The position numbers and the translations under genes were made by a program. Shown piece after piece: positions 5,383-45,510 of a stretch of 64,000 bases of DNA. The stretch is from Akkermansia massiliensis (GTDB taxonomy: Bacteria > Verrucomicrobiota > Verrucomicrobiia > Verrucomicrobiales > Akkermansiaceae). Position 1 is the first letter of the stretch; each line of letters begins with the position of its first letter. The notes beneath the pieces were generated by a model. It did no database searches. It saw only the letters and a list, made by a program, of their open reading frames with translations, and was not told where the DNA came from. The stretch lies in contig NZ_JAMGSI010000001.1 in assembly GCF_023516715.1 (NCBI RefSeq), positions 806,001 to 870,000 of the forward strand, given 5' to 3'.

Positions 5383-5390
5383 GTCGCTGG

Positions 5391-6120: not shown

Positions 6121-6138
6121 GATAGTTTTTCTGTTATT

Positions 6139-14075: not shown

Positions 14076-14405
14076 ATGCAAAACAGTATATTTTCATTGC
14101 GACTTCTTGAAGCAATGAAATCAAATGGACTAACACAGAAGGAATTAGCGGATTCAGCAGGAATTACTCAAGCTGCTGTATCAAGGTATTTGAGAGAGGA
14201 AAATACTCCAAGAGCATCCGAATTAGGGGCACTCGCAATAGCTCTTGGGGTAAGCATGGATTGGCTTTGGGGACGAAGCGGAAACAAAGAAGAGCAACAT
14301 GAGCATTATCACGATCTCGAAAATTGGAAGGTGAGAGCCATTAAGTCTGAAGAGAAGCTGAAGATGCTGAAATCAGCCATGCAGGGGTGGCTGAAAAAAA
14401 TTTAG
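14076..14405 (+). CDS. XRE-family phage repressor
   Basis: Helix-turn-helix repressor that probably maintains lysogeny. The start is taken at MQNSIFSLRLLEAMKSNG (ATG 14076), which has AGAAGAA just upstream; MNKQEEN at 14055 is the alternative. 109 residues: the HTH is LTQKELADSAGITQAAVSRY (about 17-36), then LREENTPRASELGALAIALG and the family's WLWG motif. A helical C-terminal part (ENWKVRAIKSEEKLKML) may mediate oligomerisation. It lacks the LexA-like self-cleavage domain, so induction would need another route. It diverges from the early operon. Confidence 0.85.
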   Translation: MQNSIFSLRLLEAMKSNGLTQKELADSAGITQAAVSRYLREENTPRASELGALAIALGVSMDWLWGRSGNKEEQHEHYHDLENWKVRAIKSEEKLKMLKSAMQGWLKKI

Positions 14406-17716: not shown

Positions 17717-18273
17717 AGAAACTCCGTCAGGACAGCGTAGCCGCCAATCTGCCGCCCTACCTCCGGGATGCGGTGGACGAGATGTTTTTCTCCGGCACGA
17801 CTTACAAGGCCGTGCAGGAACGGGTGGCGGAAGACGGCATCACCTGGAGCCTGACGAGCATCGCGCAGTATTACCACAACCACGTCCAGCCGCTGATGGC
17901 GACACGCCGCAAGGACATAGCCGCCAAGCTCAACAAGATGGACGCCTCCGACCTGGACGAGGCTACCTTGCAGGCGGTGCGCTCCACGGTGTTTGACCTG
18001 GCAACCTCACCAGGCAGCGACCCCAAAACCCTGAAAACTCTGTTCGGCATCGTGCAGAGTTACGCCAAGGGAAAGATGGAATCCACCCGCCTGCAACTGG
18101 ACATCGACAAATGGCAGACGATGGCCGCCCAGGCTCTGCTGGACAAGGCGCTTTCGCCGGAGGTCCAGGCAATCGTCAATGGCGAGGGCAGTGACGCCCA
18201 GAAGGTGGCCATGCTGCGTCCGCTGCTGTTTGGCAAGGCACAAACAATCACACCGGAATTTATCAATGGATAA
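17713..18273 (+). CDS. Terminase small subunit (DUF3486, Mu gp27-like)
   Basis: 186 residues. The start KLRQDSVAANLPPYLRDAVD followed by MFFSGTTYKAVQERVAEDGI matches the DUF3486 pattern ('LP..VR..LD..L..G..SY..I...L...G...S.SA..RY'), an HTH-containing DNA-recognition domain. The remainder is helical with conserved KWQTMAAQALLDKALSPEVQ. In Mu it marks phage ends for headful packaging with the large subunit. It overlaps the downstream terminase gene by 8 nt. Confidence 0.82.
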   Translation: MKKLRQDSVAANLPPYLRDAVDEMFFSGTTYKAVQERVAEDGITWSLTSIAQYYHNHVQPLMATRRKDIAAKLNKMDASDLDEATLQAVRSTVFDLATSPGSDPKTLKTLFGIVQSYAKGKMESTRLQLDIDKWQTMAAQALLDKALSPEVQAIVNGEGSDAQKVAMLRPLLFGKAQTITPEFING

Positions 18274-19195
18274 AGGCAACTCCCAGCCCCTGATCAATCT
18301 GCTTACCTTCCAGGAAGTGGCCTTTTGGCTGCGGCTGCGCACCATGTTTTTTTTGTGGGCTCGGCAGCGCGGCAAGTCCTACCTTATTGCTGCCAAGGCG
18401 ATAGACCGCATGCTGGAACGTGCCGGACGGAGTTGTTATTTTGTCAGCGCATCCATCGCCACGGGCAAGGAAATCGTGGAAAAGGAGGCCCAAATCTGGC
18501 ACGACGCGCTGGCCAAACTGCGGGCAAAACAGGAAGCCCTGGGCAAGGAACTGGGCGGCAATGTGGTGGACAAGCGTTCTCACAAGCTGCTGGCCGTGGA
18601 TGATCTGGCGGAACTGATGGACAAGCAGACGGCCCAGGTGCGCATCTACCATACGCGCACCTCTTACAGCCGCACCAAGATTCTGGCCCCCAACCCGGAC
18701 ACGGCGCGCGGCTGGACCGGAGATGTGTTTGGGGATGAAGTCGGGTTCTGGCCAGACTTCCGGGCGGTCCTGGACGCTGTGGAGCCGATCATCTCCCGCA
18801 ACCCTGATTTTCTGATGTGGATGTTCACGACGCCGCCGGAGGACGACAAGCATTTCACCTATGATTTTCTCAACCCCGGCCCGTTGGAATTCACGCCCAA
18901 CGCCCAGGGGAATTTTTACAAGACGGAGGCCGGCTATCCGGTCCACCGTGTGGACATTTTTGACAGCGAGCTGGCGGGACTGTCCCTGTTCGATCCGCTC
19001 TCCGGCAAGCCGGTGGCGTTTGAAGAATACCGCGCCCACGCCATGGACAAGGCATCTGCCGATCGCAACTATGCGCTCAAGTTTGTTCAGGGCGGGCAAT
19101 CCGCCGTGCAGCTGGCGTGGCTCAACAACGCCATGTACAAGGGAGCGCAGTGCTGCACGGGCATTGATCTTAGCAAGGAGGTACTGGCAGCATGA
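18266..19195 (+). CDS. Terminase large subunit, ATPase half (split gene)
   Basis: The start is taken at MDKGNSQPLINLLTFQEVAF (ATG 18266). 309 residues. Walker A-like FLWARQRGKSYLIAAKAI (about 30-47) and Walker B FGDEVGFWPDF near 155 are present, followed by the coupling motif FTTPPEDDK. The protein then stops, without the nuclease domain that Mu gp28 (about 550 residues) carries in the same chain. The next gene supplies it with a 4-nt overlap (ATGA). Together the two chains total about 541 residues, matching a normal TerL. Confidence 0.85.
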   Translation: MDKGNSQPLINLLTFQEVAFWLRLRTMFFLWARQRGKSYLIAAKAIDRMLERAGRSCYFVSASIATGKEIVEKEAQIWHDALAKLRAKQEALGKELGGNVVDKRSHKLLAVDDLAELMDKQTAQVRIYHTRTSYSRTKILAPNPDTARGWTGDVFGDEVGFWPDFRAVLDAVEPIISRNPDFLMWMFTTPPEDDKHFTYDFLNPGPLEFTPNAQGNFYKTEAGYPVHRVDIFDSELAGLSLFDPLSGKPVAFEEYRAHAMDKASADRNYALKFVQGGQSAVQLAWLNNAMYKGAQCCTGIDLSKEVLAA

Positions 19196-19890
19196 GCAAC
19201 TATGAGACATTGATACCGTCCACATGGGCGGAACACTTGAAAGGCGGCAAGGTATGCCTGGGCCTGGATGTGGCGTCCACCATTGAGGACAAGTCCAACC
19301 CGAGCTCGCTGACAGTGATGGAGCAATGGGAAGGCGTCTATTATGAACGGCTGGTTGTGCGATGGAAGACGGAAGACCTGGACGTGATGGAATCCATCAT
19401 CCGGCACGTACTCAAACCCATCGCCAAATCATATCGCAAGGCCTTGGTGGTCGATAAATCCAATGAAAAATTTGCGGCTAACAAACTGCGACAAAGACTG
19501 TCCGGCGAAATTCGCGTAATCGGATTTGCTGGGAACAACAATGTCATCTACGAGGGAGAAAAGACCGACGCCAAAACGGCCATGGGGTCCGCGTACTGTG
19601 GCGCGTTGGAAGATGGCCTGATCGCCATGCCCTCCGGCAAATGGCTGAGGGATGATCATCGGCTGGTCAAGCGCAACGGGGCCAAGTTTGAGTGCAAGCC
19701 GGACAAGGACGGCAACCATGCCGACACGTTTGACAGCGGCAAGCTGGCCTACTGGGGATTTATCGGCAAAAGCTTTGTAGTAGTTCCCCCGGAACCGGGA
19801 CGGCGCGACGTGAACAACGCCTACTCAGAGGCGGCTGTCCAGGCAACCCTGGCCAATAACATCAACCTAGATGAAAGACCGTTTGCATGA
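19192..19890 (+). CDS. Terminase large subunit, nuclease half (split gene)
   Basis: 232 residues with an RNase H/RuvC-like fold: first acid in VCLGLDVASTIEDKSN (D26), second in ALVVDKSNEKFAANKL, third in HADTFDSGKLAYWGF. These are the acidic residues that cut the concatemer or host-joined phage DNA when the head is full. It has its own ATG, overlapping the ATPase-half stop by 4 nt, and overlaps the portal start by 4 nt. The cut falls at the natural inter-domain linker, which suggests a stable split and not a random frameshift. Confidence 0.85.
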   Translation: MSNYETLIPSTWAEHLKGGKVCLGLDVASTIEDKSNPSSLTVMEQWEGVYYERLVVRWKTEDLDVMESIIRHVLKPIAKSYRKALVVDKSNEKFAANKLRQRLSGEIRVIGFAGNNNVIYEGEKTDAKTAMGSAYCGALEDGLIAMPSGKWLRDDHRLVKRNGAKFECKPDKDGNHADTFDSGKLAYWGFIGKSFVVVPPEPGRRDVNNAYSEAAVQATLANNINLDERPFA

Positions 19891-22031
19891 GCCGGAACAA
19901 TAAATTCAGAAAGGGAGGAACTCTGGGCAATCTCACGCTGACACCAGCACAGGCTGCCCGCCTGAAAAGCGACAGCAAGCCGGTGGTATTTACCGAGCAG
20001 GACTTGCGCGACATCCTGGGCGACCAATCCCGGCATCTGTCCTATACGCCTCCCCTAGACTTTTTGAACATTTCCACCGTGCGCTCCTGTATGAATGAAG
20101 CCCTGCGCGGAGCGTACGCACAAGTACAGTGGATATGGGAACAGCTGGAACCGGCTGATGCCGTGCTGGCCAGTTGCGTGGAAAAGAGGGACACCGCCCT
20201 GAAAAAGCTACCCTGGCGCATTGTCAAAAAGAAAGGACTGAGTGATCTGGAAGATGCCATTGCGGACGCCCAACTCAGAACGGCCAAGGACTTTTGCAAT
20301 GCCATATCCAACATGGATGAAGCAATCGCTGCATTCGGACAGGCATCTTTCAGGCATTTCCGCCGGTTGCAAATGGTGGAGACTTCCCGTGAATTTATCC
20401 TGCAAGTTACCGATAACTGGAATTGGAGCCGTGACGGCTATGGCGGCCCTTGGCAATGGAACCCACGCGCGACGTTTGGGACAGCGCGGGCGGAAGAGGT
20501 ACCCGTGCCGGAATGGTCCATCCTGACGCGGCTCTGCCCGCGTCCCATTGACCAGGTGGCCATGATGCTGTGCCTGGACCGCAAGAACGCCAAGGCACAG
20601 TGGATGACCTGCAACGGACGTTACGGCACGCCGCCGTTTTTTGTGATCATGCCGGAAGGAACGGATGAAGACACCAAGACGCTTTATCTGAAAATGGCCA
20701 TGCAGTGCATCAGTAACAGCTGCGGCACACTGCCTCCCGGTGCTGATGTCAAGGCCGTGAGCGTACCGGCCAGCACGCCGGACATGTTTCTCAAACTGAT
20801 CGACCTGTCCACCCAGGAACTGGTGCTGCGCTCCACCAACGGCCAGATGACCATGCTGACCGCTCCTGGGGCAGGCACCAACACGGAAACCGGCTCAACG
20901 CACGAAGACGGCTTTGACGATTTGGCTGCGGCCGAAGGCAAGGACATTGCCGGCGTCCTCAACCGGGGTATGGTGCGGCCCATCATCGAACAATGGCACC
21001 CCGGCCAGGAAATTTACGTGGAACTGGAAATCAAGCACCCGGAAGCGGACGACACGGTGGCCAGCGTCACCAACATATCCCAGCTGGCCGGAGCAGGCTA
21101 CCGAACTCCCGACGACCAGGTGCAGGAATTGACCGGGTACAACGTCACCACCCAGGCCATGCCGGGAGCCGACGGGCTGGGCTTGCAATCTCCCCTGCTG
21201 CGGGAGATGCACACCCGTTATGCGCCAACCATGCTGTGGCCGGCAGCGCGTGAAGCGTTTGACCAGTCCTGCATGCGAAAAGACTGCAACAGCCGCACCC
21301 AGGAACCGGCATTGAGCAAGGATGAACTCGATACCCTGCGCCGTATGGCGGAGGTGCCGGGAATAGGAGAAGTGGCCAAATTGGCGGAAACGCTACAGGA
21401 CCCCTTAAAAGCCGCCATGGACACCGAGATGCAAAACGGCCCGCAAGAGCCGGGAACCCCCGTTGCAACCCCGTTGCAAATCGCAAATTTGGAGGATGAC
21501 GACGAAAGGAAGGACACCAACGGGAAGATGAGCCGGTCGGAAGCGGCCAGACACGCCGCCAGAGTGCGCTGGGGGCAGGAAGGAAGAACCGGCCGGAACC
21601 GTGGCGTCGGGCGTGAAGGGGAAACCAGATCCGGCAGGAGCAACACGCCATTGAAAGCCGGCCAAAATGCCACAGTCACCGAAAAAGTGGATGCGGTGGA
21701 AAAGGCTATCCGGAAGACGGCGGCCAAAGGAGGCCGCGTGCAGGGCGTGGCAAAAATCGGAAGCAGCAGCCTGACGGTGGAACATGGCAGCCCCGGTCAA
21801 GGGAAGAAAGGCACCAAAGGGCACGGCAGCAGCCACGCCGCCGCCAAACACTTTGCTGACCCGCAGGACACAGATGCCAGGAAAGCGGCCAGGGCAGCCG
21901 TTGTGGGTAAGAAGTCGAAGGATGCCAAGAGCGGAAACGTTCGCTCAGAACATCAGGGAACCAACACCGTGCTGGGACAAACCGGGAAAAAGAGAGCCAT
22001 CAAGATGATCACGGCCCACAAAAAGAAATAG
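19887..22031 (+). CDS. Portal protein (DUF935) with unusual C-terminal extension
   Basis: 714 residues. Residues 40-500 fit the Mu gp29/DUF935 portal: the long arm, the PLDFLNISTVRSCMNEALRG opening, RHFRRLQMVE, and the ISQLAGAGYRTPDDQVQELT segment. From about residue 540, MSRSEAARHAARVRWGQEG starts a basic Gly/Lys/Arg-rich extension of about 170 residues, containing a KIGSSSLTVEHGSPGQGKKG strand and HGSSHAAAKHFADPQDTDA. Phage portal and MuF proteins sometimes carry nuclease or toxin-like C-terminal domains, and this could be one; the residues are not diagnostic. Usual portals of the family are about 500 residues. Confidence 0.82.
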   Translation: MSRNNKFRKGGTLGNLTLTPAQAARLKSDSKPVVFTEQDLRDILGDQSRHLSYTPPLDFLNISTVRSCMNEALRGAYAQVQWIWEQLEPADAVLASCVEKRDTALKKLPWRIVKKKGLSDLEDAIADAQLRTAKDFCNAISNMDEAIAAFGQASFRHFRRLQMVETSREFILQVTDNWNWSRDGYGGPWQWNPRATFGTARAEEVPVPEWSILTRLCPRPIDQVAMMLCLDRKNAKAQWMTCNGRYGTPPFFVIMPEGTDEDTKTLYLKMAMQCISNSCGTLPPGADVKAVSVPASTPDMFLKLIDLSTQELVLRSTNGQMTMLTAPGAGTNTETGSTHEDGFDDLAAAEGKDIAGVLNRGMVRPIIEQWHPGQEIYVELEIKHPEADDTVASVTNISQLAGAGYRTPDDQVQELTGYNVTTQAMPGADGLGLQSPLLREMHTRYAPTMLWPAAREAFDQSCMRKDCNSRTQEPALSKDELDTLRRMAEVPGIGEVAKLAETLQDPLKAAMDTEMQNGPQEPGTPVATPLQIANLEDDDERKDTNGKMSRSEAARHAARVRWGQEGRTGRNRGVGREGETRSGRSNTPLKAGQNATVTEKVDAVEKAIRKTAAKGGRVQGVAKIGSSSLTVEHGSPGQGKKGTKGHGSSHAAAKHFADPQDTDARKAARAAVVGKKSKDAKSGNVRSEHQGTNTVLGQTGKKRAIKMITAHKKK

Positions 22032-22200
22032 AAAAGCCCCGGTCAGGAACCGAGGCCACAGTCAGGTGATACGGGGCCGCTCCCAACCCCCAATCTACGG
22101 AAGGAGCCCCACTGGTTGACGCTGACAGGCTTCCTCCCGGTGCACGACCGGACATTCACCTTAACAAGCAAGACCCAAATAACAAGAGCGAATTTGAGAC
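22032..22200 (+). other. Intercistronic spacer with GC-rich pairing before the protease
   Basis: This 169-nt gap between portal and protease breaks an otherwise overlapping operon. It has AGCCCCG near 22036 matching CGGGGCC near 22073, capable of a long hairpin, and no ORF or U-tract. It may set the boundary between packaging and capsid transcripts or adjust their ratio. Confidence 0.4.
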
Positions 22201-23367
22201 ATGAAAGTAATACCGTTTAATGACGCGCCCCATGCGCCCTATGAACTGGGGAAAGTGCCGGCTGCCGGATGGTTTGCGGTGGAGCCAACCTGCGAGTGGA
22301 CGCCCAAAATGCAGGATGAACTGCGGCGAGCCCTGAACGATCCTTCCGACACGGTATACCAGGCCCGGCTGGATGCCCAGGGATTGATGATCCTGGAAGA
22401 CAATTTTTCCCTGGAAGATACCGACGGGCGCGGTCTGCCCACTTCCGAGCAGCACAAATTTGAAAAGGCGTTCGGCTGGGTGAAGGCGCTGCACGCGGAA
22501 GGGGATATGCTCTGGGCCTGGATTGAATGGACGCCCAGGGGACACCAGGCCGTGAATGAAGGGGAATATGTGTTCTTCAGCACGGAATACGATTACCCGG
22601 ATTTTGAAGTGATTGACAACCGCGTGGTGGCTCCGGTCCGGCTGGCCGGCCTGAGCGTAACCAACTACCCCAACCACAAGGGACAACTCCCGATGACCAA
22701 TTCTCGCAAACAAGCAAACCGAGATAACCAACAAGACAAAGACATGAAACCGACCAACAAGACCCGCACGGCCATCACCAAGCCGAAGCGCGACAAGAAC
22801 AGCGAGCTGGACCAGACGCCGGATGAACCGACCGAGGAAAAGACGCCTCCCACCCCTCCGGCCCAGGAGGACAACAAACCCGCCGACATGAATTCGGACA
22901 CTGACCCGGATGACCCGGAAAAGGACACCAACGACGACGGAAGCGCTGCCGTAAACATCCTGATGCAACTCGCGGAAGAGATGGACCTGGACGAATCCGC
23001 CAACGCAGAGGACGTGCTGGCCGCCGTCCAAGGCCTCAAGTCCAAGGTGGAGGAACTGACCGCCGCTCTGGCTGCCGCCAACGCATCCGGAGGGCCGGAC
23101 ACCAACAGCCGCAAACGGCGTTACCCGAACCTGGCTCCCCTGCGCGACGTCAACACGCGGATGCAGGGCCAGAAACCCAACCGGGATGTGAGCGTGCGCA
23201 TCAACGGAATGAGGCGCGACGTGAACACCCAGGAGAAAGCCATGACGGACTACTGCCAGGGCCGCGTGGATAAGGAAGAACACAAGCTGGGGCGTCAACT
23301 CAACTCCGCCGAATATGCCCGCGTCTGGCGCGATGCCCGCCAGGACTACCAGGACGGCCTGCGCTAA
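22201..23367 (+). CDS. Prohead protease/scaffold (Mu I/Z-like)
   Basis: 388 residues. The N-terminal 165 match Mu protease I: PAAGWFAVEPTCEWT, then KAFGWVKALHAEGDMLWAWI ('GWI..L...G..L.A.VEWT'), EYVFFSTEYDY and VRLAGLSVTNYPNHKG. The middle (170-255) is polar and disordered, and the C-terminal part has a helix KVEELTAALAAANAS and a basic end, as in the scaffold portion Z. In Mu the scaffold is also made from an internal start; ATGs at residues such as MKPTNKT may serve, but this is a guess. Confidence 0.82.
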   Translation: MKVIPFNDAPHAPYELGKVPAAGWFAVEPTCEWTPKMQDELRRALNDPSDTVYQARLDAQGLMILEDNFSLEDTDGRGLPTSEQHKFEKAFGWVKALHAEGDMLWAWIEWTPRGHQAVNEGEYVFFSTEYDYPDFEVIDNRVVAPVRLAGLSVTNYPNHKGQLPMTNSRKQANRDNQQDKDMKPTNKTRTAITKPKRDKNSELDQTPDEPTEEKTPPTPPAQEDNKPADMNSDTDPDDPEKDTNDDGSAAVNILMQLAEEMDLDESANAEDVLAAVQGLKSKVEELTAALAAANASGGPDTNSRKRRYPNLAPLRDVNTRMQGQKPNRDVSVRINGMRRDVNTQEKAMTDYCQGRVDKEEHKLGRQLNSAEYARVWRDARQDYQDGLR

Positions 23368-23414
23368 GGCATCCGGCAACAACCAACACACCAACATACG
23401 AAAGGAAACCAACC

Positions 23415-23855
23415 ATGATCGTCTATGACAAGCCGGTGCTGCGCCGGCAATACACGGAGGAAGCCAGCAAGCAGGGCCACCTCCATGAAGGCAAATTTGC
23501 CTCCATCAATGCTGCCGGGGAAATCGCCCTGGAAGACAACGACACAATGCCCCATGGCGTGATCAGCGAGCCGGACGGCCAGCTGCGCTCCATGCTGGGC
23601 AATCGGACCGGGGCATCCATCATCCTGTGGTCCAGCCAGTCCATCGTGCAGGCCCAGCTGGGCACAGACCCCGGCACCATCAAGATGAACACCCCGCTCA
23701 AGCGTAACGCTGACGGTACCGTTTCCGCATCCTCGGAAACTGCCGGCGACCTGATTGTGGGTTACGCTGTTCAGGACGTGGCCACCACCAAGGCCGGGCA
23801 GCTGATCAACGTGATCATGTGCAAGCCCTACAAAGTGGAGGCAGCCTCCGAATAA
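23415..23855 (+). CDS. Capsid decoration protein-like
   Basis: 146 residues, MIVYDKPVLRRQYTEEASKQ, then beta-rich sequence with Gly turns: EGKFASINAAGEIALEDNDT and VGYAVQDVATTKAGQLINVI. This is the profile of head-decoration proteins (DUF2190 type), which trimerise on the capsid surface. It lies between protease and capsid genes, the common location. No catalytic motif. Confidence 0.65.
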   Translation: MIVYDKPVLRRQYTEEASKQGHLHEGKFASINAAGEIALEDNDTMPHGVISEPDGQLRSMLGNRTGASIILWSSQSIVQAQLGTDPGTIKMNTPLKRNADGTVSASSETAGDLIVGYAVQDVATTKAGQLINVIMCKPYKVEAASE

Positions 23856-23886
23856 CATCATTATTAACTTTTAACCATTAACTGAT

Positions 23887-24843
23887 ATGAGCACAAATTA
23901 CACTTACTGTTACTCGTTGCACCAGATGGTGGTGGGCTGGTTCCGCCGTTCTCCGGTCAATCCATTGTCCTTTATCGCGCCGTCCGTGAAGGTGGACGGA
24001 GACAGCGGGACGTATGACTATTTTCCCCAGGGATATGCGTTCCGTCGCGTGGACACCTCGCGCGGACGCCATCAATCCGCCCGCAGCCTGGACCTGGTTT
24101 GCACACCACGTCCATTTGCCCTGGAGGACCACAGTCTGCGCATCGGCATCGACGATCAGGATTTGCATTTGTCCAGGGAAGAACTGGACGCCCGCCGCTC
24201 CGAAGTGGCCGCCCTTAAAGCGGAGGCCAGGACGGGAACGCTTCTGGGCGTCTGGCAAAGGTCCATGATTGCCGACGGGTTTGACCATTTCCGCAGCCAG
24301 GTTCAGGCGCGTTCCGGCGTGGGCAACTGGTCGTCTTCCTCCGCCGATCCAATGAAGGAACTCAAGGACGAGATTGACCGCATGGAAACCCAGGCCGGCA
24401 TCAAGCCCAACCGCATTCTGATTCCGAGCAAGAAGTGGGATGTGCTGGGGGCCTCCCCCGCCATCCTGGATGCCATCACCTACAACAGCGCCAGGGAACT
24501 GACCGTTGACTTGTTCAAGCAACTGCTGGGCGTCCATGCCGCCGACGATCTCCAGGTAATGGTGGCCAATGTCTCCGTTGGCAAGGATGAAGCAGGACCA
24601 TCCGTGGAGTTTGAAGGAACCAACTTGCTGGGTGACGACGTATGGCTGACCTATGCCCAGGAGGGAATGGCCGTCGGGGACTTCTCCGGCCTCAAGGTGC
24701 TGAGCGCCGGCGGCGACGCCTACGCGGAAAACGTAGAAAGCTACTACGAGCGCGGCATCCATACCACCTGGTACGAAATCAATATGAAGCATACGTACGC
24801 CGTAACGGCTCCGCCCTGCGTGAGCCGCCTGACGATCAGCTGA
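23887..24843 (+). CDS. Major capsid protein (Mu T-like)
   Basis: 318 residues, close to Mu gpT (305). The N-terminus includes LHQMVVGWFRRSPVNPLSFI, then a P-domain-like segment PKELKDEID-type helices (MKELKDEIDRMETQAGIKPN) with the common capsid phrase KPNRILIPSKKWDVLG, and a C-terminal GIHTTWYEINMKHTYAVTAP. HK97-fold capsids share the 'P..iv....w..L...p.i...i' pattern visible here. It is set apart by spacers on both sides and followed by a strong hairpin, consistent with high expression. Confidence 0.82.
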   Translation: MSTNYTYCYSLHQMVVGWFRRSPVNPLSFIAPSVKVDGDSGTYDYFPQGYAFRRVDTSRGRHQSARSLDLVCTPRPFALEDHSLRIGIDDQDLHLSREELDARRSEVAALKAEARTGTLLGVWQRSMIADGFDHFRSQVQARSGVGNWSSSSADPMKELKDEIDRMETQAGIKPNRILIPSKKWDVLGASPAILDAITYNSARELTVDLFKQLLGVHAADDLQVMVANVSVGKDEAGPSVEFEGTNLLGDDVWLTYAQEGMAVGDFSGLKVLSAGGDAYAENVESYYERGIHTTWYEINMKHTYAVTAPPCVSRLTIS

Positions 24844-34675: not shown

Positions 34676-36825
34676 AGACTGTTGAACTTACGGACAAGGC
34701 CCTGGAAGACGCGTCTTACAGCTGGCAGAATTTTACTCCGATGTGCGTTTCCTGGCGGCAGATAATCCGCCACAATGATGAGCCGCCCCCCTATGACTAC
34801 AAAGAGCCGGCGCGCATTGTCTGGAACGGCTCCACCATCATGGAAGGAACGGTCAGGCGTTGCCGACCTTCCTTTTCCGGCAACAGCTGGGCATGGCAAA
34901 TAGATGTGCATGACATCCTCAAACCGCTGGAAGGGACGCTTTGCTTTAACGCCTCCGGCAGCCTGAAAGGCGCTCTGTATGCCGCTGTGGAGGGCGGCAG
35001 CGGTGCGGATGCTCCGCGCAAAGTGTCTATTGCCGGGACGCTGAACCGCATCCTGAAAGATGCCCGCAAGCATGGATTGCTGGGGGCGGAGGTAGGAATT
35101 CAGGTGGACGTTTCCCCCGCGGCCTGGGTGTGGAACACGGCCCTGGCATGCGATACTTACGCGGGCGTGTTGCGCAAGCTGCTGGGGGCACGCCCCGGCA
35201 TGGTGTGCTGGGTTGATTATTCCGGTTCTTCTCCCGTGATCAGGGTTGCGGATGGTGCCGCCCTTCCTGCGGTCACGCTGGATCGCGCCGGGGATTTGCT
35301 GACGGCCATCGATTTGGACCCGCGCCATGACCTGGTTCCCCCTGCGGTGGGCGTGGTGCTGACGGCCGGGCACATGGCCCGTCAATCCCAGGTTTGGCCG
35401 CGCGGGGCCTCCCTGCGCCAGGAGGGATGCGTAACCGTGCAGCTGGCCATGCCCGGAACCACACCGGAAACGGAAGACGAACCGCCCAGCTCCGAATCTC
35501 CCATCTGGTCTTTCTTAAAGCCCGAGATACTGGTGCTTGGAGACAAGCTGCCCACCGGACCTGATGACGCGGCCGAGTGGTGGCAGGGGAAAGTTCCCAA
35601 GCTGGCGGAAGTTCCGGGGGCGCGTTTCGGGGCTGTGAAGAAAACTGTTCTGAAAAACAAGGCCAGCGACGCCAGCAATTACAGCACGGCGGAAAGCGCC
35701 CAGGTTTATGAGTTGTTCAAAGGGGATTTGTCTCCGGCATGCAAACTGATCAAGTGGTGTTATGTATCACTGACGCAGGAAGTTTATATCACGGTGCCGC
35801 CCCGTCCGGGGTTTGAATTGCTTTTTGGCAAGCAGAAGATCGTGAACGGCCAGAAACGCTGGTACAGCAAACTGACATGGAGGGGGCGCACGGTCAACAC
35901 TCCCAGGCGTTGGTACAGGGCCGACAAGTCCGGGACAACGGGGCCGGAAGATGGTTCCTCAATACCGGATAAGCCGGACACAGGGGAAACAGAGCAGGAA
36001 TGGCCGGATTATACCGGCGTCCTGCGGGATTATTATGAGATTACCCGGCAGCTTCCCTGGGAGGGGACGTTGCAGTCCTTGCGGGCCTTGTCTCCTGCCG
36101 GGTTGGTAGGCCGTCAATTATCCATTACAGGCGGCCGCACGGAATGGGTGGATATGTCCACCGTGGTGCAAGGTGTAAGCGTGGATTTGGCCGGCAGCCG
36201 CACGTCTGTCAACACAGGGGTGCCGGCGCATTTATCGTTGCAGGATATGATGGACCGCGCCAAGTCCCTGCAATCCGGACAGAATGATCTGGATCAGGAT
36301 GACCAGCAGGACAACCCGGTCCAGACTCTCCAATATGACGATGATGCCCGTAAATCTCCGGAGGCTCCCACTTTTGGGCCGGAAGGGGAAGTTGTCTGGA
36401 CCGAGGCGCCCGACCGTCCAGCGGGTTTTGGGTTCCAGGTTGTCCTGGATTGGGATGACGATAATACCACCGTCACCGGCTATCGGCTGCGGCCGGGCCT
36501 GCTGCTGCTCAACGGGACGACGTTCTGCAACGCCGCCCCGGAACCTACCGAGGGAGACTGGTACAAGGGGGCCGTCACCAGCGGGGAAATTTGGCTCAAT
36601 GTGCGGTTCAACGGCAAAGGAAAGTACCAGGGCAGCACGGTAGCGTATTCACAAGGGCCTGTTAATCCCCTACGCCTCCAACCGGAGGAACCGGATGGGG
36701 AAGAGTTTTATTACTCCTTCCACCTGGCCACGATCACCCCTGACCATGAAGTCATCCAGTATGAACTGGGTTCCATCCAGATTCCCGTTCATGGCGGTTC
36801 CAATTATCCCTACGGCCCGGCCTAA
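34672..36825 (+). CDS. Tail hub / baseplate-like protein
   Basis: 717 residues. The N-terminal 200 resemble hub proteins of the gp27/gpD type: PARIVWNGSTIMEGTVRRCR (a 'g....f.G.v....' strand) and WQIDVHDILKPLEG. The middle is Trp/Pro-rich and the C-terminus has a FNIII-like beta segment (FQVVLDWDDDNTTVTGYRL) that could bind sugars. It is the last clear virion gene; 15 nt separate it from the glycosyltransferase. Confidence 0.62.
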   Translation: MKTVELTDKALEDASYSWQNFTPMCVSWRQIIRHNDEPPPYDYKEPARIVWNGSTIMEGTVRRCRPSFSGNSWAWQIDVHDILKPLEGTLCFNASGSLKGALYAAVEGGSGADAPRKVSIAGTLNRILKDARKHGLLGAEVGIQVDVSPAAWVWNTALACDTYAGVLRKLLGARPGMVCWVDYSGSSPVIRVADGAALPAVTLDRAGDLLTAIDLDPRHDLVPPAVGVVLTAGHMARQSQVWPRGASLRQEGCVTVQLAMPGTTPETEDEPPSSESPIWSFLKPEILVLGDKLPTGPDDAAEWWQGKVPKLAEVPGARFGAVKKTVLKNKASDASNYSTAESAQVYELFKGDLSPACKLIKWCYVSLTQEVYITVPPRPGFELLFGKQKIVNGQKRWYSKLTWRGRTVNTPRRWYRADKSGTTGPEDGSSIPDKPDTGETEQEWPDYTGVLRDYYEITRQLPWEGTLQSLRALSPAGLVGRQLSITGGRTEWVDMSTVVQGVSVDLAGSRTSVNTGVPAHLSLQDMMDRAKSLQSGQNDLDQDDQQDNPVQTLQYDDDARKSPEAPTFGPEGEVVWTEAPDRPAGFGFQVVLDWDDDNTTVTGYRLRPGLLLLNGTTFCNAAPEPTEGDWYKGAVTSGEIWLNVRFNGKGKYQGSTVAYSQGPVNPLRLQPEEPDGEEFYYSFHLATITPDHEVIQYELGSIQIPVHGGSNYPYGPA

Positions 36826-36839
36826 AATATAGAACAACG

Positions 36840-37556
36840 ATGATCAGAATTACCATTTTAACTTTTAGTCGTGATGCGGCGCTGTCCCTGGCGGCGTTGC
36901 GTTGCGTGCGCCGGCGTTTGCCGGATGCCGCCGTGACGGTGGCCGATGATGGGCACGATCCGGTCACAGCAGAGGTGGCCGCCCAAATGCAAGCCCTGGG
37001 CGCCAGGTATGTGCAGACGGATTTTCCGCGGCGCGGCAACCTCAACGGCAGTTCCTGCGTGCGTGGCATCCTGGAAACATTGCTGGACGGCACAGCCGAT
37101 GACGATGTTGCCATCAAGCTGGATGCCGACACGGTATTGCGTTCTGACGGACCTGTGCGCCGGATGCTGGCAGCGGGCGCGGAAGGGTTCGGCAGCTGCT
37201 GCGACGGACGGATCATGTGCGGCCTGTGCTACGGGTTCACGGGTGCCGCGTTGCGCCGGATGCTGGCGGTTCTGGACCGGCTGCCCATTGGGAGTGACGA
37301 TCCGGAGGATATAGCAACGGGACGCCTGGCCATGGCCGCAGGGGTTCCTCTTCACATTGAGCGTCCCTGGTCGGCATCACGACCGGAGGGACGCTGGGCG
37401 GCCTACCGCTGGCCAACGATGCCGGCAGTAGCCAAATATGACCGGCTGGACGTGGTGACGCTGGGCACTCTTCACATGCCCCGGCAGCAGATGGACGCAG
37501 CAGAGTTCATCCGCGTATTTGACGAGTTGGCCGCCAGGAACGTGATCGGGGAGTAG
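36840..37556 (+). CDS. Family 2-like glycosyltransferase near the right end
   Basis: 238 residues with a GT-A fold outline: ITILTFSRDAALSLAALRCV start, AVTVADDGHDP (nucleotide-binding strand), and VAIKLDADTVL with a D-x-D metal motif (about 94-96). The acceptor half includes LPIGSDDPEDIATGRLAMAA, where an ED pair could be the catalytic base. No membrane span. It is a cargo gene at the end of the late operon; right-end genes of transposable phages often modify DNA or the host surface. It may glycosylate virion proteins or host glycans. Confidence 0.72.
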   Translation: MIRITILTFSRDAALSLAALRCVRRRLPDAAVTVADDGHDPVTAEVAAQMQALGARYVQTDFPRRGNLNGSSCVRGILETLLDGTADDDVAIKLDADTVLRSDGPVRRMLAAGAEGFGSCCDGRIMCGLCYGFTGAALRRMLAVLDRLPIGSDDPEDIATGRLAMAAGVPLHIERPWSASRPEGRWAAYRWPTMPAVAKYDRLDVVTLGTLHMPRQQMDAAEFIRVFDELAARNVIGE

Positions 37557-37635
37557 GGGGGGCCAGTTCAAGCCGTTTTCAAGGGAGGGGCAACCAGGTT
37601 GCAATGGGGATGCAACGGGGTGGCGTTCAAAGGTG

Positions 37636-37684
37636 AATTCGCCATCTTTCTGTCAATTTTCACCATATTCGCCGTCACGTTACA
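37636..37684. repeat. Right-end transposase-binding sites
   Basis: Read from the right end inward, TGTAACGTGACGGCGAATAT is followed by GGTGAAAATTGACAGAAAG and ATGGCGAATT. The site at 37636-37656 is an inverted copy of 5529-5549 (20 of 21 positions), and the outer site matches the left-end one. Two adjoining sites near the end match the R1/R2 arrangement of Mu. Confidence 0.75.
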
Positions 37685-37688
37685 TCAG
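37685..37688. repeat. Right target-site duplication TCAG
   Basis: TCAG directly follows the closing CA of the prophage and repeats the TCAG at 5391-5394. The 22 nt after it (37689-37710) complete the interrupted spacer up to the next repeat. Confidence 0.75.
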
Positions 37689-37710
37689 ATGCTGGTTGAT
37701 GTAGGCCCTA

Positions 37711-38547
37711 GTCGCACTCCGCAAGGAGTGCGTGGATTGAAACGTCCCGGTAGCTGTAGTAGGCACTGGCACTGGCCGTCGCACTCCGCAAGGAGTGCGT
37801 GGATTGAAACTATCTCGCAAATATCATTATCTGATAAACACAACCGTCGCACTCCGCAAGGAGTGCGTGGATTGAAACCTGAATCCCATCTCAAAATTGG
37901 TAATGACATCGTGTCGCACTCCGCAAGGAGTGCGTGGATTGAAACGGATTTACGCTATCCAAGTAATGATGAAGCACTTGTCGCACTCCGCAAGGAGTGC
38001 GTGGATTGAAACATTAAAGTATTCGACGATATGCCTCAAAGCTGGAGTCGCACTCCGCAAGGAGTGCGTGGATTGAAACATACCATTCGGCGGGATAAAG
38101 CGTTAAGTGCGCTGTCGCACTCCGCAAGGAGTGCGTGGATTGAAACTTTGAACATTTCACACGGCCTTAATTCGCATCCAGTCGCACTCCGCAAGGAGTG
38201 CGTGGATTGAAACCCCACTATGGGCGTGGTAAGGGAAAACGCGGTCCGTCGCACTCCGCAAGGAGTGCGTGGATTGAAACCGTAGTTGTATTCCCACGCG
38301 TAGAATTGAGCGGGTCGCACTCCGCAAGGAGTGCGTGGATTGAAACTTCACCGTCTTGACGGCAAACACCCCAGCCAGTTGTCGCACTCCGCAAGGAGTG
38401 CGTGGATTGAAACGGTATCATGGTCACAGGTCAGGTGCAGGACAACGGTCGCACTCCGCAAGGAGTGCGTGGATTGAAACTCGTTGAGATTATCCAAAGC
38501 TATAGCAGACAAATGTCGCACTCCGCAAGGAATGCGTGGATTGAAAC
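37711..38547 (+). CRISPR. CRISPR array 2, leader-distal (13 repeats, 12 spacers)
   Basis: Thirteen 33-bp repeats in the same orientation as array 1, starting at 37711; twelve are identical to the array 1 repeat. The last (38515-38547) reads GGAATGCG in place of GGAGTGCG, breaking one stem pair, as expected at the old trailer end. Spacers are 33-35 nt. No leader, cas gene or promoter adjoins it. It is the downstream half of the array cut by the prophage, followed by a terminator. Confidence 0.98.
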
Positions 38548-38596
38548 ATCGGAAAGGCTTGCTATGTCCGGATTTGCGTAACTCTTCCTAAAAATG

Positions 38597-38636
38597 AAAA
38601 GCTCTCCAGGCTTGTTTGGTCTGGAGAGCTTTTTTT
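38597..38636. terminator. Terminator after CRISPR array 2
   Basis: AAAAGCTCTCCAG pairs with CTGGAGAGCTTTT around an 11-nt loop and is followed by a further T run; the A-rich left side makes it usable from both strands. It would end the CRISPR transcript and the converging leftward genes at 38650. Confidence 0.9.
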
Positions 38637-38649
38637 CGGGTTTCGTTGT

Positions 38650-38913
38650 TTATTTTTCAGCCGGGGGCTGCCGGTTCAGATCGAGTTCTGCGGGAGGGAG
38701 GGACTGGAGCAGGGTCAGAATGGGGTCCTGCGGTGCGGCGCCCGCTTCCCGCTGGCGTTTGAATTCCTCCTCTTCCTGCTGGAGGGCCGCCAGTTTGGTA
38801 TCTTCCACCAGCGCCTTGAATTTGTCCGCCTGGGAGTATTCTCCATCCGTATCCCGGAAGACGCGGGCCAGCCAGCGGCGTTTTTCTTCCGTGCTGAGCA
38901 GGGGCTCTTTCAT
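38650..38913 (-). CDS. Small phage-remnant protein, terminase-small-like
   Basis: 87 residues, MKEPLLSTEEKRRWLARVFR, with DKFKALVEDTKLAALQQEEE following. The pattern 'LS.EERR..LA.I.RD......D..KAL......L' is common in the HTH part of small terminases, but the protein is short and lacks a partner large subunit here. It overlaps the preceding gene by 4 nt and ends beside the shared terminator. Confidence 0.55.
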   Translation of the reverse strand: MKEPLLSTEEKRRWLARVFRDTDGEYSQADKFKALVEDTKLAALQQEEEEFKRQREAGAAPQDPILTLLQSLPPAELDLNRQPPAEK

Positions 38914-39203
38914 GGGCTGGGGAGGGTGTTTTTATCCAGCAGGTTTCCTGCAAGCTGTTCCCCATCCGCGGTGGGGCGGTAGACGTAAGGGCGGCTGTCC
39001 CCGAAGCGGTTGATGTATCCCTGTGCAATGAGGTCCTGCAGGATGTTGGTAACGGTATTGGGATGCAAGCGCGTGGCTTCCGTAATGGTACTGTGGCGCC
39101 TGTATCCGGCAATGACGGCCAGGATGACCTGGGCGCTGCTGAGGCGGAAGTCCAGCCTGCGGACGTTGGAGGCGAATATCTGTATGAAGTCCAGGGCTTT
39201 CAT
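38910..39203 (-). CDS. Winged-helix (MarR-like) DNA-binding protein
   Basis: 97 residues. AQVILAVIAGYRRHSTITEA then TRLHPNTVTNILQDLIAQGY form a clear winged helix-turn-helix, followed by a wing (INRFGDSRPYVYRPT) and a short helical tail. Small size suggests a phage regulator or DNA-recognition subunit. Coupled by a 4-nt overlap to the downstream gene. Confidence 0.7.
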   Translation of the reverse strand: MKALDFIQIFASNVRRLDFRLSSAQVILAVIAGYRRHSTITEATRLHPNTVTNILQDLIAQGYINRFGDSRPYVYRPTADGEQLAGNLLDKNTLPSP

Positions 39204-39253
39204 GAGCTTGTATTCACAAGTTGTTGTTATGTTGCTGCCTTGTTATTCTCCTG

Positions 39254-39874
39254 TTATTCACATTCCTCCGGGCAGGCGGGCGACTTGATTTTCCTCAGCA
39301 GGTCCAGCAGGGGGTGGGAGTCGTTGGAGAAGCTCTGCACCGCATTGACGGTTGCCGCCTGCGGGAGAATGATTTTATGGAATTCCTGGTGAAGATTCTG
39401 GCGAAGGCTTTGGTTGCCCGTCAGGGGCATGGCCAGCTTTTCTGCCAGGCGGGTAGCCAGCGCGTCCATGAAGAGGGGATCGAATTGTTCGGCGTCTTCA
39501 ATGTCGGCTATGTAGCTCATGGGCAGCGGCGCGCGGGAGGCGTGGATGCGCCTTCCCTGCATTTTCCATTCCGTGCATTCCACATCCAGCACGCGCAGGC
39601 AGTCCGCAGGCAGGGTGAATTGATAGGGTGTCAGGGAGTTGGGCGCCTGAGCGGAGACGGAGTCCAGCGTGGTTTGCGTGGTGGCGAAGGTCCAGCGCGC
39701 CATGCAGAGGGTTTCCCTCCGTGCCGGGTGGTAATGAAGAACGCAGAGACGGGATGCCGTGGATTCATTGGCAATCAGCGCGTCCAGCGGAGCCTCCCCT
39801 ATTTTGGAGAGTGCCGCGTTGCAGATGTCCAGCGCGGAGGGAGTGTCCGGCTGAAGTAAGGATTCATTGATCAT
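39254..39874 (-). CDS. Tail tubular protein A-like (T7 gp11-type)
   Basis: 206 residues. ALDICNAALSKIGEAPLDAL, SRLCVLHYHPARRETLCMAR and WTFATTQTTL match the 'A...iCN.AL..IGq..i.sl......A..c...y...r...L....W.FA' signature of the podovirus tail tubular/head-tail protein. The C-terminal half includes LPADCLRVLDVE. It sits opposite in strand to the portal gene of the same remnant and is apparently intact. Confidence 0.8.
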   Translation of the reverse strand: MINESLLQPDTPSALDICNAALSKIGEAPLDALIANESTASRLCVLHYHPARRETLCMARWTFATTQTTLDSVSAQAPNSLTPYQFTLPADCLRVLDVECTEWKMQGRRIHASRAPLPMSYIADIEDAEQFDPLFMDALATRLAEKLAMPLTGNQSLRQNLHQEFHKIILPQAATVNAVQSFSNDSHPLLDLLRKIKSPACPEECE

Positions 39875-40156
39875 AACGCCACATGTTTGGCGGAAACGGA
39901 TGCGGAATGCATCACGTTTGGGAACACCCTCTTTGATGCCACCGGTGGCACGTATGCGCCCGGTTTTTCCCCGGATGCATTTTCCTCCAATTCATCTATT
40001 TGATAAATGCATGCACCTTCCCGGGCAATTCCGGGCAGGTGAGGAGACCGCCCTTTTCCTCCGCGGGGAGCGAACGTTCCCGCCGCATGGATCGTCCGTG
40101 CGGCAGGCGTGGAAGGGGCCATCAGTATAAACCATGCATAGAAAGTAAAAGAGATT

Positions 40157-40372
40157 ATGGGATTTATGAAACCGTCCACTCCTTCCACTCCAGCTCCGGA
40201 GCAGGCCATCCCGGTTAAGGCGGAGAGCGTGGGAGAGGAAGTGGGAGAAGATTATCAGGCCCGGGAGCGGCAGAGGCAGGGGATGATTTCCACCATTCTG
40301 GCGCGCCGCAATTCTTCCGTCGGGCAGGGGGAGGTCAATCCCCGGACTCTGCTTAGGAAAACCCTGGGATAG
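40157..40372 (+). CDS. Small podovirus-type protein upstream of portal
   Basis: 71 residues, MGFMKPSTPSTPAPEQAIPV; Pro/Thr-rich then a charged helix ERQRQGMISTILARRNSS and basic end RTLLRKTLG. Short proteins of this kind ('...gg...i..t..g..g........kktllG') precede the portal in podoviruses. It lies 8 nt before the portal gene. Function unknown. Confidence 0.6.
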   Translation: MGFMKPSTPSTPAPEQAIPVKAESVGEEVGEDYQARERQRQGMISTILARRNSSVGQGEVNPRTLLRKTLG

Positions 40373-40380: not shown

Positions 40381-42015
40381 ATGGAAGAGAGAGTTGCGGA
40401 GCTGAATTCCGTGTACAAGTCCCTGGCCGCCCAGCGCGCGCCGTGGGAGACGTGGTGGGACCGCCTGAGGGATTACGTGCTGCCCCGCCGCCTGAACCGG
40501 GAAGGGGAGGTTTCCCTCCCCAACAGGGACGCCATGGACCGCATGACGGATACCACTGCCGTGGAGGCGTGCCAGAAGCTGGCCAGCGGCCATATGTCCT
40601 ACATTACGCCCAGCCATGACGTGTGGTTCAAGTGGTCGGCTCCGGACGACCGGGGAGGGGACGAGGCGGAGGCCTGGTACAATCAGTGTTCGGAGATTGC
40701 CCTGAAGGAGCTGTCCGTTTCCAATTTCTATACGGAGATCCATGAGTGTTTTCTGGACCGCGTGGCTTTGGGGACCGGCAGTTTGTTTACGGGAAGTTCC
40801 TCGGACGGAAGGCTGCTGTTCACCAATATTCCGTGCGGTCAGTTCGCCTGTGCGGAGAATGCGGAAGGCCGGGTGGATACCTACGTCAGGGAGTTTACCT
40901 ATACCGCCCACCAGGCGCGTTCCATGTTCGGCATGAAGGCCCTGGGGCCCAGGGCGCGGGAGGTGCTGGAACGCGGCGGCAATCCGTACGCCACGTCCCT
41001 GCGGTTCCTGCATGTGGTGCGTCCGCGCACCCGCCGGAGCCGCCGCAGGGAGCAGGCCGCCCACATGCCGTTTGAAAGCGTGTATCTGTCCCTGGACGAC
41101 CAGGTGATCGTGGAGGAGGGGGGATATATGGAGTTTCCCTACCTGGTAACCCGGTTTTTGAAGTGGGGCAGCGGTCCGTACGGCCTCGCGCCCGGCAGGC
41201 TGGTGTTTCCCGCCATCCAGCAGGTTCAGTTCCTGAACCGCATTCTGGACACGCTGGGGGAGGTGGCCGCCTTCCCACGCATTCTGGAGCTCGCCAACCA
41301 GATTGGGGAGGTGGACCTGCGGGCCGGCGGCAGAACCGTCATTACCCCGGAGGCCGCCTCCCTCCACCTTCCGCGGGAGTGGGCCACGCAGGGCAGGTAT
41401 GACGTCGGGATGGACCGTCTGGCGCAGAAGCAGGACGCCATCCGGCGCGCCTATTACCTGCCCATGCTGGAGCTTTGGAGCGGCCACCGCGGCAGCATGA
41501 CCGCCACGGAGGTGATGGCCCGGGAGAACGAGCGCGTGCTGATGTTTTCCCCGTCCTTCACGCTGTTTGTGAGTGATCTGTATTCCACCATGACGCGCAT
41601 TTTCTCCCTGCTGTTCCGCATGGGCAAGTTTCCCAGGCCTCCCCGCGCCGTTCTGCGGGAGGGGAGGGACGGCTCCATTGCCGTCGGAGAGCCCAGGGTG
41701 GTGTACCAGTCAAAGATTGCGCTGGTGCTCAGGCGCTTGCAGAGCGAGGGGATGGACCGCAGCCTTCAGCGCCTGAATATGATGATGCAGGCCGCTCCGG
41801 ATTTGGCGGATCATGTGGACTGGGACCATTGCTTCCGCCTGTCCACCCGTGTGGACGGCGCTCCGGAGAGCATGCTGAGGCCCTGGGCCGATGTCCAGGC
41901 CATGCGGAAGGAACGGGCGGACCGCCAGCAGGGGGCCGCACAGGCTCCGGCGGAAGAGGATCCGTACGCTTCCCTCAATCCCTTGCTTGACCAGTTAACC
42001 ACGATTCAGGAATGA
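40381..42015 (+). CDS. Podovirus portal / head-tail connecting protein
   Basis: 544 residues. LAAQRAPWETWWDRLRDYVL at the start, QKLASGHMSYITPSHDVWFK, ECFLDRVALGTGSLFTGS and LELWSGHRGSMTATEVMARE are hallmarks of the Bacteriophage head-to-tail connecting family (T7 gp8 and BPP-1 type). Length is normal and no frameshift is seen. In a live phage it forms the dodecameric portal. It overlaps the next gene by 4 nt. No major capsid or large terminase gene is in the window, so it belongs to a remnant. Confidence 0.88.
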   Translation: MEERVAELNSVYKSLAAQRAPWETWWDRLRDYVLPRRLNREGEVSLPNRDAMDRMTDTTAVEACQKLASGHMSYITPSHDVWFKWSAPDDRGGDEAEAWYNQCSEIALKELSVSNFYTEIHECFLDRVALGTGSLFTGSSSDGRLLFTNIPCGQFACAENAEGRVDTYVREFTYTAHQARSMFGMKALGPRAREVLERGGNPYATSLRFLHVVRPRTRRSRRREQAAHMPFESVYLSLDDQVIVEEGGYMEFPYLVTRFLKWGSGPYGLAPGRLVFPAIQQVQFLNRILDTLGEVAAFPRILELANQIGEVDLRAGGRTVITPEAASLHLPREWATQGRYDVGMDRLAQKQDAIRRAYYLPMLELWSGHRGSMTATEVMARENERVLMFSPSFTLFVSDLYSTMTRIFSLLFRMGKFPRPPRAVLREGRDGSIAVGEPRVVYQSKIALVLRRLQSEGMDRSLQRLNMMMQAAPDLADHVDWDHCFRLSTRVDGAPESMLRPWADVQAMRKERADRQQGAAQAPAEEDPYASLNPLLDQLTTIQE

Positions 42016-44333: not shown

Positions 44334-44524
44334 CGTATTTGTTCCGGATCGGAACGTTTTCAGCGGGAGCGGCGGCAGAACAATCGTCGCTCCTGCCGTG
44401 TTTTGGGAAGAAAGATGGGAAATTTTCCCTACACTGTTTTTGATGGCTCAAGTTCAAAAGAAGCTCCATGAAATTATGACAAACGCATATTGAATGAAGG
44501 ATTTGCCCATCCGGTCCTACCTGC

Positions 44525-44869
44525 ATGCCTGAATTTACAAATGCATTTAGCGGATTAAAGGAAGGCCGGATGCTTACCCATGATGAATTGGTAAGGGCCA
44601 TCCGGTTCATGATTGCTGCGGAATATGAATCTATTCAGATTTATACCCAGCTTGCCGCGTCCATTGACCACAAATTGGCCCAGGAAGTCCTTTGGGATAT
44701 TTCCAATGAAGAAAAGGAACACGCGGGCGAATTCCTCCGCCTCCTTCAAGTGCTGGCCCCGGACGAACAGGGTTTCTACGATGAAGGGATGGGTGAAACC
44801 AATGAAAAGATCGACAAATTGAAGGCGTCCTGCCCGGACGGCAAATGCAGTTCTCAAGCCACCCAATAA
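44525..44869 (+). CDS. Ferritin-like protein, copy 1
   Basis: 114 residues from MPEFTNAFSG, or 99 from MLTHDELVRAIRFM (44570), which has an AGGAAGG upstream and is the family's usual start. Helical pair with metal ligands: Glu in FMIAAEYESIQIYTQLAASI and EEKEH in ISNEEKEHAGEFLRLLQVL. This matches the short ferritin-like proteins associated with encapsulins in other bacteria. The C-terminal CPDGKC adds two cysteines. No encapsulin shell gene is nearby. Likely an iron-oxidising or peroxide-protecting protein. Confidence 0.75.
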   Translation: MPEFTNAFSGLKEGRMLTHDELVRAIRFMIAAEYESIQIYTQLAASIDHKLAQEVLWDISNEEKEHAGEFLRLLQVLAPDEQGFYDEGMGETNEKIDKLKASCPDGKCSSQATQ

Positions 44870-45165
44870 AGGGTTTTCCAGCCGCCACTGCAAGACGCCC
44901 GTTTTTTTCCACGAAGAATCCGGGCGTTTTCTCATGCCGCGCATGTGTCCCGGCTCGCCTCTTTCATTTCATGCCGACAGTGGGGAAAGTCCCGCAGCGG
45001 GAAAATTGAGGAGGGAAAAACTGCCGTTTCCTCATATGGAAAAAAGCCGGAATGCGAGGCTGGATTCCTTAGACCGTTTTTAATGGAAAAAGTTCAAAGA
45101 ATGTCGCGAAAAATATATGACAAAAACATTTTGAATACATTAGTGGTGATTTGAGTCATACCTGC

Positions 45166-45510
45166 ATGCCTGAATTTACAAATGCATTTAGTGGACAAAA
45201 AGAAGACCGGATGCTTACCCATGACGAATTGGTAAGGGCCATCCGGTTCATGATTGCTGCGGAATATGAGGCCATCCAGCTTTATACCCAGCTTGCGGAA
45301 TCCATCGATAACAAGCTTGCGCAGGAAGTCCTTTTGGACATTTCCAATGAAGAAAAGGAACACGCGGGCGAATTCCTCCGCCTCCTTCAAGTGCTGGCCC
45401 CGGATGAACAGGGCTTCTACGATGAAGGGATGGGTGAAACCAATGAAAAAATTGACAAATTGAAGGCGTCCTGCCCGGACGGCAAATGCAGTTCCCAGGC
45501 CGCTCATTGA
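45166..45510 (+). CDS. Ferritin-like protein, copy 2
   Basis: 114 residues from MPEFTNAFSG (a TTG start at 45151 would add five). Nearly identical to copy 1: metal ligands in AAEYEAIQLYTQLAES and EEKEHAGEFLRLL, and the same CPDGKC end, with changes clustered at residues 11-15 and 40-60. Upstream sequence is also related (ATGACAAA.. and TTGAATACATT), so the duplication covered the promoter. Short, recent tandem duplication; dosage or differential induction is the likely reason. Confidence 0.75.
   Translation: MPEFTNAFSGQKEDRMLTHDELVRAIRFMIAAEYEAIQLYTQLAESIDNKLAQEVLLDISNEEKEHAGEFLRLLQVLAPDEQGFYDEGMGETNEKIDKLKASCPDGKCSSQAAH

Follow-up and report, generated by a model that had tools for sequence, protein, structure and literature searches.

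The 64,000-nucleotide stretch of Akkermansia massiliensis DNA analysed here (the window, in genome G000; other G-numbers are the other genomes or IMG/VR records compared) raises the question of why a CRISPR array at 37711-38547, array 2, stands without a leader, and whether its spacers are still expressed. The first-pass annotation had described a leaderless array of twelve spacers some 32 kb away from the leader, and had proposed that phage state switches it on and off. The locus is composed as follows.

3-1721, minus strand: cas3, N-terminal part, extending upstream past the window edge
1818-2486, plus strand: cas4 (Pfam and PADLOC)
2483-3502, plus strand: cas1 of type I-C (Pfam and PADLOC)
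3517-3807, plus strand: cas2 (Pfam and PADLOC)
3808-4009, plus strand: leader, with a core that three other Akkermansia I-C leaders share
4010-5382, plus strand: array 1, 21 repeats and 20 whole spacers, leader-proximal
5383-5394, plus strand: split spacer 21, 5' part (12 nt), ending in the target duplication TCAG (5391-5394)
5395-37684, no strand assigned: Mu-like prophage p1, 32,290 bp, with TG...CA ends, a 4-bp duplication and Mu-type genes
37685-37710, plus strand: split spacer 21, 3' part (26 nt), starting with TCAG (37685-37688)
37711-38547, plus strand: array 2, 13 repeats of 33 nt and 12 whole spacers, leader-distal and leaderless
38596-38634, plus strand: terminator (hairpin and T-run) after array 2, fold -27.3 kcal/mol, z -5.5

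The two arrays have an identical repeat and the same direction, with 34 repeats in total; in array 2, 12 repeats match the consensus exactly while the final one carries one change, which marks the trailer end. When p1 is removed in silico, the two parts of spacer 21, which have TCAG in common, close to a spacer of 34 nt with one TCAG, and therefore array 2 is the old, leader-distal end of one type I-C array and no separate array. It has no leader because a Mu-like phage transposed into one spacer and split it. The first-pass annotation was thus right on the twelve spacers and on the distance, with the leader ending about 33.7 kb before array 2 and the insert itself accounting for 32,290 bp. 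Of the type I-C gene set around the leader, cas5c, cas8c, cas7c, cas4, cas1 and cas2 were identified by Pfam and PADLOC. The minus-strand genes are cas3 and, after it, cas5c, cas8c and cas7c, and part of this group lies upstream of the window; cas3 is an 823-aa frame without stops that was assigned by its position and homologues, its C-terminal 249 aa having no Pfam match. None of these genes has an internal stop, and interference may be functional. Of the three leaders whose alignment shows the shared core, one lies in the same genome. An inversion of the cas operon was ruled out, the divergent layout being native in relatives. The terminator after array 2 is conserved in G090, G091 and G096, and 11 other genomes of the genus have a match at 79-95% to the first 1.75 kb past the array (38548-40300). 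Farther on, the window holds a head-tail adaptor-like gene at 40381-42015 (PHROG 332, 1e-83) and two 300-nt direct repeats (44514-44813 and 45155-45454) that are 91% identical.

The inserted element is a Mu-like prophage by its transposase, its MuB-type ATPase and its ends, TG...CA ends being typical of Mu-like phages. Its main features are given below.

5844-5872, minus strand: terminator near the early end of p1
5887-6120, minus strand: small conserved phage ORF, 77 aa, directly downstream of the repeat mimic
6136-6166, minus strand: solitary CRISPR-repeat mimic (candidate RNA anti-CRISPR), overlapping the 3' end of ORF 6139-6579
7594-8115, minus strand: Mu Gam-like protein (family match)
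9606-10640, minus strand: MuB-like AAA/TniB protein (PHROG 296)
10654-12699, minus strand: MuA-like transposase (PHROG 310)
13962-14405, plus strand: phage repressor-like HTH protein, divergent from the transposase operon
18179-24843, plus strand: late operon with terminase, Mu portal, protease and major head genes
36840-37556, plus strand: last late gene, 238 aa
37557-37684, plus strand: late end of p1, where neither a terminator nor a convincing promoter was found

For the product of the last late gene, neither Pfam nor PHROGs nor NCBIfam gave a family. As regards the Cas effector genes that a CRISPR-associated transposon would encode, no Cas match was found among the p1 proteins scanned, a subset of its ORFs.

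The insertion of p1 is not the only one of its kind. Ten Mu-like prophages were found at array loci, nine with CRISPR repeats at the junction and the tenth in the array trailer, and these related prophages of Akkermansia or its close kin sit in leader, repeat, spacer and trailer and in both orientations. All six insertions whose two junctions are readable show 4-bp duplications, namely p1, p2, p3 and those of G004, G042 and, at a non-array site, G041. The second Mu-like prophage of G000, p2, lies between array B and cas7 (L106 4010-5621, L066 15564; G000:C1:766010-801565), some 25 nt beyond the final, degenerate repeat of that array; its duplication is CTAT. In G046, a spacer of array B is split by p3, which is closely related to p1, with GAAA duplicated in array orientation, its junctions sitting on two separate contigs that have this 4-bp duplication in common, and the spacer closes to 34 nt; a p2-like phage in G004 splits another spacer, which also closes to 34 nt, with CCTG duplicated; and the phage of G042 lies inside an array leader with CATG duplicated, the uninterrupted leader being seen in G040. 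Single junctions were read in the IMG/VR records G090 and G094, in spacers 6 nt and 11 nt from the repeat respectively, and in G096, inside a repeat, which is the only one of the ten sites plainly within a repeat. The end of the G084 phage, placed by eye, lies 46 nt beyond the nearest repeat of a 106-repeat array, and the early end of the G091 phage is placed by flank homology in the trailer of array A, beside the conserved terminator, in a record without any repeat. Hence two or three of the ten sites, those of p2, G091 and perhaps G084, lie past the last repeat. Two insertions were seen to strike the centre of a palindrome, one in the G042 leader (CCTCC-CATG-GGAGG, G042:C40 about 9855) and one in the loop of a repeat (L198 3842). 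In a tree with long branches that meet, the transposases of the array-sited phages fall in several lineages, so array siting does not track one MuA clade and no single targeting protein is singled out.

The samples that bear on the frequency of such sites are of uneven value. Four of the ten cases are IMG/VR records, whose hosts count as array-bearing solely through the junction; these records are trimmed, and G092, G095 (47.6 kb, phage end not placed), G097 and G098, with no readable junction, could hide counter-examples. G041 carries its phage at a non-array site with ACGG duplicated, most of the compared proteins being 93-100% identical to those of the G042 phage and some lower, and its genome has 0 matches to GCGTGNRTTGAAAC in a search that covered this one repeat pattern. 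G013 is array-bearing (38 matches to GCGTGNRTTGAAAC) and has three Mu-like transposases, two of them identical, with no array found in the 65, 65 and 34 kb read around them; of the third copy just the transposase region is recognised before the contig end. Two arrays of G013 lying 13.6 kb apart were considered as a split array and rejected, with housekeeping genes, recognised from translations, between them. G002, G009, G010, G055, G060 and G078 have Mu-like genes and no match to GCGTGNRTTGAAAC and are uninformative, and the short or cut phage pieces of G039, G065, G070, G075 and G085 were left unscored, though G085, with 47 matches to GCGTGNRTTGAAAC and a 7.2-kb phage piece, could be a counter-example.

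Counted with generous flanks, array loci occupy 0.24-0.85% of the genomes that have arrays. With the largest fraction used throughout, 10 of 13 insertions being array-sited gives p 5e-19. Excluding the window case leaves 9/12 (p 5e-17), excluding in addition G091 and G084 leaves 7/10 (p 4e-13), whole genomes alone give 5/8 (p 2e-9), and with both junctions required 4 of 7 remain (p 2e-7); if G085 and G095 are scored as counter-examples, 4/9 still corresponds to p 6e-7. Moreover, none of the 11 sites with a junction read, ten at arrays plus that of G041, lies in a cas gene, the cas genes offering a target of 7.9 kb against 8.4 kb for all arrays of G000 and 2.9-3.3 kb for those of G004, G042 and G046.

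These phages also carry a repeat-like element of their own. The mimic of p1 lies about 740 bp inside the early end, and a counterpart is present in seven of the ten array-sited phages (p1, p2, p3, G004, G042, G090 and G091) and in G041, L065 and L203; none was found in G084, while in G094 and G096 the mimic region falls outside the contig. The copies (L066 14750-14780; L065 15947-15979; L068 14119-14151; L133 8044-8076; L138 11491-11523; L148 5682-5712; L149 5332-5363) lie in the early operon, in several phages directly upstream of the conserved ORF of about 77 aa. Their stems vary in sequence and remain paired, GGATTGAAA being kept in 8/8 aligned copies, while those of p1 and G090 are degenerate and the p1 hairpin has a bulge. 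As a single repeat-like hairpin outside arrays and of the host's own I-C subtype, the element has the make-up of a solitary repeat unit, and the simplest reading is that it would act as an RNA anti-CRISPR. A role of the mimic in targeting arrays is a speculation; the association of its presence with array siting is weak, with a Fisher p of 0.024, or 0.067 if the identical pair of G013 is counted once. ORF 6139-6579 on the minus strand, which ends inside the mimic, resembles the PADLOC candidate family PDC-M11B (6e-22), and the Akkermansia phage Chantilly (ON453895.1; L105 5008-5040) has a single CRISPR-repeat-like copy with 3 mismatches.

The spacers themselves bear on the conflict between these phages and CRISPR. 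In G004, two of the eight leader-distal spacers (L133 8841 and 8906) match the resident prophage, differing only at position 1 and with the PAMs TTC and TTT, and none of the seven leader-proximal spacers does. In array A of G044 (L074), 11 of 29 spacers find a match in the present group of Mu-like phages at <=2 mismatches, a TTC PAM accompanying 8 of these matches, and one of the G044 spacers is a perfect match to p1 37505-37537. For the host of p1, no match to p1 or p2 at <=6 mismatches was seen either among the 119 whole spacers extracted, a set without other CRISPR types or the last spacer of array B, or for the split spacer, and thus silencing gave p1 no visible protection. Self-targeting as the cause of the p1 site was rejected, with 0/32 window spacers matching the window phage at <=8 mismatches. 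A self-targeting memory that would have been silenced is therefore visible in the G004 case and absent in the window case. In the phage collection, the search for protospacers of array 2 gave nothing convincing, only repeats and weak matches, and one spacer of array 1 was found at 91% in the Akkermansia phage Chambord. A 5.2-kb entry among the phages, MT838487.1 ('Bacteriophage sp.'), has seven places that match the arrays and may be a misfiled CRISPR array.

As to the expression of array 2, the signals at the phage ends have to be considered together with the readings they would support. The last late gene, like those head and tail genes that were recognised, is read on the plus strand toward array 2, in the sense direction of the array, and it ends 128 nt short of the phage end; moreover no outward intrinsic terminator was found in 37557-37710, and 37557-37684 folds no better than shuffled sequences (z 0.26), so that the first-pass annotation holds for both the direction of the late operon and the missing terminator. 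Late read-through on induction could thus give array 2 pre-crRNA; Cas5c is present in G000 (Pfam/PADLOC), and Cas5 is the crRNA-processing protein of type I-C (in the cited part of PMC10651486). The proposal drawn from this, namely a functional arrangement in which array 2 stays silent in the lysogen until induction brings late read-through, appears quite improbable to us. In the seven array or leader insertions the late end faces the leader-distal repeats in four (p1, G042, G094 and G096) and the early end in three (p3, G004 and G090), which means that the switch is not a conserved design; besides, the induced cell is presumably doomed, and immunity may just then be dampened by the repeat mimic that the early operon carries. 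The two ends differ, as all six copies examined have a strong terminator 0.4-0.6 kb inside the early end, and among eight late ends those of p1, p2, p3, G004 and G096 have no terminator, that of G094 a weak hairpin, that of G042 one hairpin and that of G041 two. Late read-through into array 2 may thus occur in this strain, incidental to the landing orientation. The opposite possibility, that cryptic promoters in the spacers or the phage end keep array 2 constitutive and the split hardly matters, seems unlikely. Each repeat ends in a -35-like TTGAAA, array 1 has a -10-like match in 3 of its 21 repeat-spacer pairs, and cryptic promoters in arrays are documented in Sulfolobales (the cited part of PMC10883916), but array 2 has such a match in 0 of 13 pairs (by chance about 5% each), and the strict promoter scan of 36800-38700 is empty, the relaxed scan of 37400-37760 giving a single weak site at 37639 (8 of 12, gap of 19 nt). 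These consensus scans have little power, and since they find no better site in the leader itself, the missing promoter is weak evidence; the silence of array 2 in the lysogen is plausible from the signals seen.

The siting of the phages may also be seen as a matter of survivorship, that is, insertion might occur anywhere and lysogens persist only where the I-C immunity against the phage is weakened, a reading that we take as rather unlikely. It would agree with the cut-off half of the G004 array, where both spacers against the resident prophage lie, with the G044 array, where so many spacers match this phage group, with G041, a host without such repeats that has its phage elsewhere, and with DMS3, whose transposition deleted CRISPR regions in Pseudomonas aeruginosa lysogens under autoimmunity (as given in the cited part of PMC11406979). 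But it does not readily account for the pattern, because no site with a junction read lies in the cas genes, though they offer 7.9 kb against 2.9-8.4 kb of array, and because two or three of ten insertions, being beyond the final repeat, would have no spacers to silence; nor was any G000 spacer found against p1 or p2. Recombination between the phage mimic and the array repeats, on the other hand, can be put aside as almost certainly wrong. The mimic does resemble the repeats, and Camara-Wilpert et al., citing Varble 2021, refer to repeat-like sequences by which viruses integrate into arrays (PMC10651486, in the passage cited); but the junctions coincide with the phage termini and show 4-bp duplications, which contradicts such an exchange, and the mimic lies well inside the early end of p1.

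We therefore return to a preference for array loci as the reading that we favour. On top of the observed insertions, it supposes that the transposition machinery, or something carrying it, would prefer CRISPR array loci, that in the lysogen the spacers beyond the insertion would be cut off from their promoter and so silent, among them the two of G004 that match the resident prophage, and that the solitary repeat RNA would add an anti-CRISPR action by occupying Cas proteins; taken as a whole, this explanation is in our opinion rather likely. As for its more specific form, the chances appear evenly balanced that the Mu-like phages of Akkermansia aim at arrays by a repeat-binding factor, or by the repeat RNA together with host Cas proteins, and so silence leader-distal memory, in one case including anti-self spacers.

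Prophages are said to reach the direct repeats of a type II-A locus in Streptococcus pyogenes by an integrase and reportedly carry a protein anti-CRISPR. For that species, the integration of prophages into CRISPR loci has been described as leading to evasion of immunity (Varble et al. 2021, Nat Microbiol 6:1516, in the part cited), and p1 likewise is a temperate phage inside a CRISPR locus, separating spacers from their leader. The present case differs in a transposable Mu-like phage with transposase-type genes, 4-bp duplications, type I-C, many array positions, with one of ten sites plainly in a repeat, and an RNA repeat mimic. In its gene content p1 agrees with transposable Mu-like phages, which have MuA-, MuB- and Gam-like genes, a Mu portal and about 32 kb (PMC7761591 and PMC11406979, in the parts cited); those are described with low sequence preference and a 5-bp target duplication (the same part of PMC11406979), whereas here a 4-bp duplication and an apparent preference for CRISPR arrays are found. 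A parallel in effect is DMS3, where Mu-like transposition also remodels the host CRISPR locus, although by large deletions under autoimmunity and with a 5-bp duplication, while here simple insertions with 4 bp leave the cas genes of G000 intact (PMC11406979, as far as the cited part goes). The 28 IS insertions reported in CRISPR-Cas loci are likewise transpositions with target duplications, but there the insertion sequences are described as entering cas genes, whereas here whole phages land at arrays (from the cited part of PMC10359306). The mimic may be compared with RNA anti-CRISPRs or solitary repeat units, single phage repeat-like hairpins of the host's subtype, for which RacrIC1 is a type I-C example (Camara-Wilpert et al. 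2023, PMC10651486, in the part cited), except that the p1 mimic, a candidate of this kind, overlaps an ORF end and has a bulged hairpin. Among the best-ranked literature matches no report of transposable phages targeting arrays was found; prophages in CRISPR loci, Mu-like CRISPR deletions and IS insertions are thus known precedents, to which recurrent landing by transposition appears to add a new form.

The recurrent landing at arrays is a larger finding than the leaderless array 2 with which the question began, and Mu-like phages seem to use CRISPR arrays as a landing site again and again. If array-landing transposable phages are real, they would constitute an integrase-free route for phages to edit CRISPR arrays, and in a culturable gut genus such as Akkermansia it would become testable by what means a transposase locates arrays and what happens to spacers severed from their leader.
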